Positions 49,267 to 51,455 of a stretch of DNA of 64,000 nt are shown here, piece by piece; position 1 is the first letter of the stretch, and the number at the start of each line of letters is the position of its first letter. Source of the DNA: Bacteroidaceae bacterium (GTDB lineage Bacteria > Bacteroidota > Bacteroidia > Bacteroidales > Bacteroidaceae); NCBI GenBank assembly GCA_017557635.1, contig JAFYYH010000022.1, positions 186,001 to 250,000 of the forward strand, given 5' to 3'. A program made the position numbers and the translations under genes. The notes below the pieces were generated by a model that did no database searches, was not told where the DNA came from, and saw only the letters and a program-made list of their open reading frames with translations.

Positions 49267-49490
49267 AACAGGGACTGATTGATTTTTCAGGCTCAAAAGT
49301 AAGCCATCGGCCCCGCTCATTCAAGAAAAAAGTGAAAAGACCCCGTTTTTGGCCCAAAAGTGTCAAATTTTTGGACAATGCCGGCAGAATAACAGTATCG
49401 GGCCGATATTAAGATAATGTTACAATCGTTTTCAGCTCTTTCAAAGATGAAGGATTAATCATATATTTGTGCTGAAAACGAAAGTAAAAG
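49267..49490. other. divergent promoter region of ABC permease and Na/Pi fusion gene
   Basis: No gene seen. On the minus strand TACTTTTG (49294-49301) precedes the ABC permease; on the plus strand TATATTTG (49462-49469) lies 21 bases before the Na/Pi gene ATG. If the fusion protein binds DNA, this spacer is a natural candidate target. Confidence 0.4.
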
Positions 49491-51455
49491 ATGTTAGTTG
49501 TATTGAAACTATTGGGCTCTATCGCCCTGCTCATTTACGGTATGAAGGTCATGAGCGAGGCGTTGCAGAAGATGGCAGGCCCGCAATTGCGTCACCTGTT
49601 GGGCGCAATGACCACAAACCGTTTCTCTGGAGTGGCAACAGGAGCACTTGTAACAGTAGCAGTTCAATCATCAGCCGCAACCACCGTAATGACGGTGTCA
49701 TTCGTCAACGCGGCACTGCTCACACTCAGCCAGGCAATATCCGTCATCATGGGTGCCAACATCGGTACCACACTCAGCGCCTGGATCATGTCGGCCGGAT
49801 TCTCGTTCAACATTGCGAACTTGGTCTGGCCCGCTTTTTTAATAGGTATCATCTTAATTCAGATTGGCAAGCACCGCTATGTGGGAGATTTCCTGTTCGG
49901 TATCAGCTTCCTGCTCTTTGCGCTGGGCATGCTCAACCAGACCGGCCGCGAGATGGATCTGGCCAGCAACCCCGCAGTGGTGGATTTCTTCGCGTCATTT
50001 GATTCCGGCAGTTACTGGACAATCCTGCTGTTCCTGCTCATCGGCGCCATTCTGACGTGCATCGCGCAGTCATCGGCCGCACTTATGGCCATCACAATGG
50101 TGCTCTGCTCTACCGGCGCAATCTCAATCTTCCAGGGTATCGCGCTGGTTATGGGTGAGAACATCGGCACCACACTGACTGCAAACCTGGCTGCCATGTC
50201 GGCCAACACACAGGCCCGCCGCGCTGCTATGGCCCACCTGCTGTTCAACGTATTCGGTGTGATCTGGGTTCTGATACTGTTCTTCCCGTTTGTACGCATG
50301 GTCTGCCGCTTTGTCGGAATTGACGTTACGGCCGATGCCATTGACCCGGCAAGACTCACATTCGCCCTGGCAACGTTCCACACGGCATTCAACGTGATAA
50401 ATACATCCGTGCTAATTGGTTTCATTCCTCAACTGGAGAAACTTGTATGTTATATCATCAAGCCCCGTAAGACCGATGAGGAGGACGAGTTCCGTCTGCA
50501 GTTCATTCGCGGCGGTATCATGAAGACCCCGGAAATATCTGTTCTGCAGGCCCAGAAGGAGATTGTGATCTTTGGCGAGAAGATGCAGCACATGTTCCAC
50601 ATGACCAAGGACCTCTACTCCATTACCGATGAGGATGAGTTCAAGAAGCTGTTTGAGCGCATCGAGAAGACCGAGGACGTGAGCGACCGCATGGAACAGG
50701 AGATCGGCAAATACCTGGGCGATGTAGGTGACGCACACCTTTCAGACGACACCAAGGAGAAGATCCGCGCCATGCTGCGTCAGATCGGTGAGTTGGAGTC
50801 AATCGGCGACAGCTGCTTCGGTCTGGCCCGCATAATGCGCCGCAAGCGTGACAACCAGATTGTGTTCAACGATGAGCAGCAGGCCGGCGTTGAGCAGATG
50901 TTCACTCTGGTTGACCAGGCTCTGACTCGTATGAACGAGCTGCTGGCCGGACGTCGTGAGGACTATGACCTGACCGCTTCCGAGGAGATTGAGAACAGCA
51001 TTAACGGTTGCCGCAACCGCCTGAAACAGTGGAACATAAGCAACCTTGACCAGCATGTCTACAGCTATGACAACGGTACCGTATTCTCAGACCTGATAAA
51101 TGAGTTTGAGAAGAACGGAGACTATATAATCAACGTAGTTGAATCACGTCTGCGTGCAACGCGCACAGGTATCCGTTTCAAGGGTATTTACATAGATACA
51201 GACGCCAAGACCGTATCTGTTGACGGAGAGCCCGTTGCATTCACAAAGACCGAATACGAACTTCTCAAGATGTTCATGATGAATCGCGGCATGGTTTATT
51301 CTCGTGAGGATCTGCTCCAGGCCATCTGGCCCGATGACGTGGTCGTTAACGCCCGCACCGTCGATGTCAACATCACCCGCATCCGCAAGAAGATAGAACC
51401 CTACGCCGACCACCTGACCACCCGCGCCGGCTTCGGCTACTCCTTCCAGGAGTGA
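49491..51455 (+). CDS. Na/Pi cotransporter with PhoU-like domain fused to a PhoB/OmpR-type winged-helix DNA-binding domain
   Basis: One uninterrupted 654-residue frame with three parts. Residues 1 to about 335 are a type II Na/Pi transporter with its two QSSAATTVM / QSSAALMAI repeats and GANIGTT / GENIGTT motifs in membrane helices. Residues about 345-555 are a helical PhoU-like cytoplasmic domain, usual in bacterial members. Residues 561-654 are a winged helix: FKGIYIDTDAKTVSVDGEPV, TKTEYELLKMFMMNRGMVYS, REDLLQAIWP, and the recognition helix region ARTVDVNITRIRKKI, then TRAGFGYSF. That is a response-regulator output domain, with no receiver domain. The family normally ends after the PhoU part. 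It suggests a phosphate transporter that acts as a membrane-tethered regulator. A family-A repeat starts five bases after the stop. Confidence 0.93.
   Translation: MLVVLKLLGSIALLIYGMKVMSEALQKMAGPQLRHLLGAMTTNRFSGVATGALVTVAVQSSAATTVMTVSFVNAALLTLSQAISVIMGANIGTTLSAWIMSAGFSFNIANLVWPAFLIGIILIQIGKHRYVGDFLFGISFLLFALGMLNQTGREMDLASNPAVVDFFASFDSGSYWTILLFLLIGAILTCIAQSSAALMAITMVLCSTGAISIFQGIALVMGENIGTTLTANLAAMSANTQARRAAMAHLLFNVFGVIWVLILFFPFVRMVCRFVGIDVTADAIDPARLTFALATFHTAFNVINTSVLIGFIPQLEKLVCYIIKPRKTDEEDEFRLQFIRGGIMKTPEISVLQAQKEIVIFGEKMQHMFHMTKDLYSITDEDEFKKLFERIEKTEDVSDRMEQEIGKYLGDVGDAHLSDDTKEKIRAMLRQIGELESIGDSCFGLARIMRRKRDNQIVFNDEQQAGVEQMFTLVDQALTRMNELLAGRREDYDLTASEEIENSINGCRNRLKQWNISNLDQHVYSYDNGTVFSDLINEFEKNGDYIINVVESRLRATRTGIRFKGIYIDTDAKTVSVDGEPVAFTKTEYELLKMFMMNRGMVYSREDLLQAIWPDDVVVNARTVDVNITRIRKKIEPYADHLTTRAGFGYSFQE

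Follow-up and report, generated by a model that had tools for sequence, protein, structure and literature searches.

A Na/Pi symporter with a PhoU domain and a PhoB-type winged helix in one chain: a candidate regulator of its own gene in Bacteroidaceae

The window analysed here is a stretch of 64,000 nucleotides from the genome of a Bacteroidaceae bacterium. On its forward strand, positions 49491-51455 contain one intact open reading frame (654 amino acids plus stop) in which, as the initial annotation had proposed, a transporter, a PhoU domain and a winged helix are joined. The transporter part (approximately residues 1-330; 49491-50480) was identified by Pfam, hydropathy, motifs and a match to the sequences of SLC34A2 chains. 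It contains the two Na_Pi_cotrans repeats of the Na/Pi symporter family (PF02690, TIGR00704), with QSSA motifs at residues 59 and 193, and judged by its sequence the fused protein would be a sodium-coupled phosphate symporter. The PhoU domain (residues 347-554; 50529-51152) consists of two three-helix bundles, and its three pairs E395/D399, E436/D440 and E540/D544, which correspond to the E(D)xxxD motif of PhoU (PMC5686610), are invariant in an alignment of 50 sequences. A short linker (residues 555-559; 51153-51167), with pLDDT below 50 at residues 557-559, leads to a winged helix of the PhoB/OmpR type (residues 560-654; 51168-51452), whose predicted recognition helix (residues 621-634; 51351-51392) is overlapped by the motif RTVDVNITRIRKK; all of these parts lie on the forward strand. 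A winged helix of the response-regulator output type had been suggested at residues 561-654, and the domain and fold comparisons indeed placed a PhoB-type domain at residues 560-654. The absence of a receiver was also borne out: no Response_reg match, and hence no receiver domain with a phospho-acceptor, was obtained in the 654-residue protein by Pfam search, and the PhoB model aligned to it solely from model position 128. The winged helix is located after many hydrophobic segments, so that membrane segments and a DNA-binding domain are combined in a single chain, as in transmembrane one-component regulators in the broad sense.

Upstream of the gene, the divergent spacer (49267-49490) contains a direct repeat with an 11-bp period, TGTAACATTATCTTAAT, which is read on the reverse strand at 49408-49424 and is the only site in the 64-kb window that agrees at 12 or more of 13 defined positions. 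The sequence TATATTTG, of the TAnnTTTG type and taken here to be a -7 promoter element, follows 37 bp after this repeat on the forward strand (49462-49469).

The fusion is not restricted to this genome. Among 80 loci fetched from named genomes, 36 carried it in one frame, many of them in assemblies that are titled as ruminant-gut Bacteroidales and Prevotella; a further copy (L017) was broken. Within the genus, 20 of 37 genomes had the fusion, 17 matching over the full length and three from residue 7, 10 or 18, and one more genome had a broken copy (G489, locus L194). In an even sample of 199 genomes of the family, it was found in at least 14, a lower bound given weaker matches outside the listing, and these were distributed across five genera; in an even sample of the order (295 genomes), our genome was the sole carrier among the matches listed. 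In the alignment of 50 sequences, Trans_reg_C matched 34, equal to the number of fused sequences entered. Because one-frame fusions recur across independent assemblies, an assembly or frameshift artefact could be ruled out. The orthologues with the same fusion that the initial annotation had proposed to look for therefore exist, and the described departure from the usual family is real; it is not a one-off, being present in at least five genera and absent again in many close relatives. It should be noted that several loci were dropped before counting, namely L017 and L080 (the latter broken and unfused) from the 80 loci, as well as L109 and L110, in which the transporter part is missing or cut. 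G489 was excluded from the genus test; of 30 further genus loci, no frame could be read for L185, L194, L198, L199 and L203, and the upstream region of L186 was unusable. In L110 (4157-5020, genome G338), a frame of 288 amino acids encodes most of PhoU and the winged helix, and no transporter part was found upstream; it is a truncated fusion, a pseudogene, the effect of an assembly edge or a soluble PhoU-winged-helix protein.

The initial annotation had also suggested a signalling chain that needs no kinase, and the gene content of our genome (2.44 Mb, 89% complete) agrees with this. The only other Trans_reg_C gene that we found is presumably RprY and adjoins its kinase; neither a separate PhoB nor a partner kinase for the fused protein was seen in the genome as assembled. 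PhoU was found solely in two Na/Pi transporters, the second of which is unfused (595 amino acids; L086, 3033-4820, contig C20) and has no Pho box at threshold. No PstB reached the cut-off of the profile search (best score 139.9 versus 343.2 bits). Several congeners (G328, G343, G378, G387, G396 and others) contain ABC ATPases in frames of approximately 360-400 or 890-930 amino acids, with PstB-model scores of approximately 215-245 bits, whereas our genome has none above 140 bits; these are perhaps of another ABC type. In the family sample, a separate PhoB-type match was lacking in 12 of 14 fused genomes versus 43 of 185 others (p 4e-6), and in the genus in all 20 fused genomes versus 11 of 16 others (p 0.012), both comparisons being uncorrected for relatedness and based mostly on draft genomes. 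The 142 other genomes of the family test were counted as PhoB-positive on a match alone, and for one of them, G338, the match is really the truncated fusion of L110. Two of the 14 fused genomes in the family sample also keep a PhoB. PstB was present in four of the 14 (E 1e-90 or better, with two of these scoring under the model cut-off) versus 80 of 199 in the whole set, an association with lack of PstB too weak to be used. Control of Pst by the fusion was rejected, as no intergenic box was found at the pst loci of these four genomes.

Comparison of the promoters helped to define the upstream repeat and its probable role. Within our own lineage, the sequences upstream of the fusions were divergent between several genomes save for a block starting approximately 80 bp before the start codon. 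Across the fusions, the consensus of the repeat is TGTAAC-N5-KTAAY, and its orientation is one way in our own lineage and the opposite in the Prevotella-type fusions. The distance from the repeat to the TAnnTTTG element was 37 bp in 12 of 14 promoters of the former orientation (no perfect element being present in the other two), and in 18 of 19 of the latter it was 32-33 bp (34 bp in the remaining one), so that 30 of 33 boxed fusions have the element at one of these fixed distances. The spacing of 32-33 bp was also observed in five of six transporters that adjoin phoB and have a box, and in two pho/pst loci (L136 and L142); it was absent at L102 and at the boxes in pst regions of the Bacteroides type (L133, L145 and L146). 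In the pst regions of four relatives with a classical PhoB, five exact 6-mer repeats occurred at a spacing of 11, versus 0.53 expected, and four of the five repeat units were TGTAAC-like on either strand; the pst region of L136 had no such exact repeat. In B. fragilis, where pstS and pstC are arranged head to head, PhoB binds a fragment of the pstC promoter in gel shifts, and a phoB mutant shows a mere trace of pstC expression (PMC3547664). Because the same repeats occur in pst regions and PhoB binds at pstC in B. fragilis, the repeat upstream of the fused gene is very probably a Pho box. Genome G340 (L121 and L142) has a run of three TGTAA repeats with 11-bp spacing upstream of a predicted gene that has two phoB-phoR pairs and a pst locus in its neighbourhood.

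We then compared the occurrence of the box, called when at least 12 of 14 positions matched within 200 bp upstream, with the state of the recognition helix, which was PhoB-like in 35 of 50 fusions and changed in 15; for the 80 loci, adjacency to phoB was scored at the locus itself. The box was present in 33 of the 35 fusions with a PhoB-like helix (exceptions L050 and L068) and in none of the 15 with a changed helix. It was found in 6 of 7 transporters beside phoB and in only one of 42 unfused transporters without an adjoining phoB (L076, a weak box), and shuffled sequences reached the threshold in 39 of 2970 cases. Fisher tests of this split gave p values of 6e-11 and 3e-18, uncorrected for relatedness. 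Among phylogenetically independent pairs (n=9), a median of seven changed in the same direction and none in the opposite, with two ties (median p 0.016, range 0.008-0.063); the fusions alone provided four pairs (approximately three same and one tie), too few for significance. As some of the promoters scored had also been used to define the first box pattern, that pattern may be set beside one derived from pst regions (at least 9 of 12 positions), which matched 33 of 35 PhoB-like fusions, 0 of 15 changed ones, 6 of 7 phoB-adjacent transporters and 8 of 42 unfused ones, the last at about the same rate as shuffles (349 of 1980). Further members of the genus, which are close relatives of the first set and serve as a check rather than an independent test, had the box in eight of nine fusions with a readable upstream region (exception L181, whose helix is PhoB-like) and in none of five unfused genes. 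A sixth unfused gene, L201, has a box without the fixed spacing, and a PhoB-type gene lies divergently beside it. The simplest cause of these observations would be that the fused winged helix reads the box. The suggestion that the divergent spacer is a plausible target is thus supported, since the spacer contains a Pho box whose presence tracks an intact recognition helix. It could also be narrowed to the promoter of the transporter itself as the most likely target, because several genomes differ in the sequence beyond the box yet keep the box, the -7 element and the start codon as a unit.

On the basis of these results, we consider it reasonably probable that the Na/Pi symporter acts as its own transcription factor through the fused PhoB winged helix, with PhoU replacing receiver and kinase. 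According to this model, the DNA-binding half of PhoB would have been joined to the upstream transporter gene in a transporter-phoB-phoR set, with loss of receiver and kinase, and PhoU, its three E-xxx-D sites intact, would occupy the former place of the receiver. Held under the membrane by the transporter and PhoU, the winged helix would bind the Pho box upstream of its own promoter and most likely activate its own gene; we infer both DNA binding and the positive sign from sequence comparison. When phosphate is ample, PhoU would be expected to keep the winged helix in a position where it is inactive, and when phosphate is scarce to release it; such control through PhoU is likewise an assumption of the model. 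Activation is favoured because the box lies upstream of the promoter at a fixed spacing, as in phoB-adjacent transporters. The opposite sign, in which the winged helix would bind the same box and block transcription, the transporter thereby restricting its own production, appears unlikely. Negative feedback would suit an abundant transporter, the co-occurrence of box and helix is silent on sign, and the two main groups of fusions carry the box in opposite orientations; however, its fixed position 32-37 bp upstream of the -7 element, the sharing of the 32-33 bp form with most boxed phoB-adjacent transporters and two pho/pst loci, and the loss of pstC expression to a trace in the B. fragilis phoB mutant (PMC3547664) all argue against a repressor.

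Selection on the winged helix bears on whether the domain is still in use. Its dN/dS values were 0.024, 0.046, 0.095, 0.030, 0.106 and 0.107 against the six nearest of ten relatives, 0.174, 0.273 and 0.175 against three more distant ones, and 0.463 against the most distant, and the motif RTVDVNITRIRKK was unaltered in all nine rows of our own lineage. The winged helix is under purifying selection in this lineage. In the more distant comparisons it evolves faster than the transporter part and, because fused and unfused forms are interspersed and 15 of 50 fusions have an altered recognition helix, it is dispensable in many lineages. These points, together with its absence in many close relatives, might indicate a decaying remnant that no longer binds DNA, the transporter being otherwise controlled or constitutive. 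For our own lineage this is quite improbable in view of the low dN/dS, the unchanged motif and the disappearance of the box where the winged helix is missing or its recognition helix changed; it may hold for lineages such as L044-L056. In seven fusions (L044, L048, L049, L051, L054, L055 and L056), the winged helix is kept at full length although its recognition helix is strongly altered and a Pho box is absent; they possibly have a new DNA target or are in decay. The overall interpretation given initially is supported in part: the winged helix is real, selected and of the PhoB type, no separate PhoB was found in the genome as assembled, and the spacer contains a Pho box, the target being changed to the transporter's own promoter; that phosphate flux or PhoU alters DNA binding would be a hypothetical further step.

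We also searched whole genomes for other targets. The perfect box pattern occurred once in our genome, at the promoter of the fused gene; of ten sites with one mismatch, nine were viewed, eight lying inside predicted frames and one being intergenic. Five fused genomes of the genus together had 18 sites with at most one mismatch versus 16 for the control. A looser pattern applied to 23 genomes gave no clear excess over control (11 versus 8 in our genome, and 26 versus 48 in G388, which has a classical PhoB). A wide regulon was therefore not recovered by pattern scan, and because an excess is missing even in classical-PhoB genomes, such a scan can neither show nor exclude other targets. The single perfect match fits a regulon of one gene, on a scan that is equally powerless for PhoB regulons. 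Some membrane-bound regulators are known to be cleaved from the membrane, and a winged helix released in this way could serve a wider gene set in soluble form, a role for which the PhoU-winged-helix frame of L110 would be a candidate example. We give this little chance: the linker comprises only about five residues, nearly all one-mismatch sites viewed lie within frames, and the sole perfect match, for what a scan powerless for wide regulons can tell, is at the own promoter. Use of the box by another regulator, with the fused domain irrelevant to it, is very improbable: RprY is present and our assembly is incomplete, which leaves room for an unseen PhoB, but weak matches of RprY length (putative RprY) occur in fused and unfused congeners alike, the box tracks the fused helix or a neighbouring phoB, and no separate PhoB-type match was found in any of the 20 fused congeners.

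The proposed self-regulating symporter resembles several known systems in part. NptA-type Na/Pi symporters with a PhoU tail (PF02690 and PF01895) have the same transporter repeats and PhoU domain; their chain stops with PhoU and they influence a separate two-component system, whereas the fused protein adds the DNA-binding domain in the same chain. In S. aureus, the PhoU tail of NptA has been reported to modulate PhoPR (PMC13170248). With the PhoB of Bacteroidota, the fused protein has the winged helix, the recognition-helix motif and the probable Pho box in common, but it is membrane-bound, has no partner kinase that we could see and, because it lacks a receiver, is not a PhoB response regulator. 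Regulators of the ToxR/CadC type likewise act from the membrane by a winged helix within one protein; in them, the DNA-binding domain is N-terminal and is followed by one membrane helix and a periplasmic sensor. The fused protein starts with a polytopic transporter, continues with a sensor-like domain in the cytoplasm and ends in the winged helix, so that domain order and topology exclude it from this type. CbrA, a transporter-fused sensor kinase, signals through its kinase and a separate regulator; kinases of this kind also join a transporter-like part to a signalling part, but unlike the fused protein they need that separate regulator. Transmembrane regulators are widespread and numerous in Bacteroidia, and the available part of the corresponding survey mentions no transporter as the membrane part (PMC10269533). 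No earlier description of a Na/Pi-PhoU-winged-helix chain was found in the literature searched (supplements and subscription journals lay outside the search), and we file the protein with the membrane-bound one-component regulators as a variant new to that literature.

How a phosphate transporter and PhoU report phosphate is a long-standing question, and the many separate parts make it hard to study. With transporter, PhoU and DNA-binding domain in one chain and one obvious target, it could be addressed with one protein and one promoter, with natural controls provided by the lineages in which the box is missing together with the winged helix or its DNA-reading surface. The fusion further illustrates how a two-component system may shrink to a one-protein switch. 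A broader proposal, which we regard as plausible if slightly doubtful, is that a two-component pathway collapsed into its transporter, perhaps repeatedly, by in-frame joining inside transporter-phoB-phoR sets, leaving a regulon of essentially one gene; reading of that gene would pull it to the membrane and so perhaps within reach of the new protein during its insertion there.

The origin of the fusion was examined in trees. Separate genes in a row, transporter-phoB-phoR with a full PhoB, were found at L078, L111 and L117, and this is likely the ancestral layout. In the transporter tree (99 rows, a quick method, some rows being near-identical and from one species or very close ones), these three join rows that are fusions or contain them, by starred branches (97, 99 and 98); the branches of L078 and L117 are long. 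The winged-helix tree nests the PhoBs of L078 and L111 within one fused group and, with weak support, puts the PhoB of L117 beside another; it splits the fusions into separate groups, with a single clade not rejected (p 0.15, 96 columns). The natural reading would be one to several fusion events from transporter-phoB-phoR sets. Fused and unfused forms are interspersed on the transporter tree and need 9 to 13 changes, a count that does not distinguish loss from gain; repeated loss of the winged helix would be the simpler reading. Profile search found no convincing winged-helix remnants downstream of unfused genes; at L023, a tblastn match reaches residue 598, past the end of its own frame near residue 558. 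Finally, at L102 and L103 (G485 and G457) a full PhoB comes after the transporter and no PhoR adjoins, a layout that is possibly an in-between stage.
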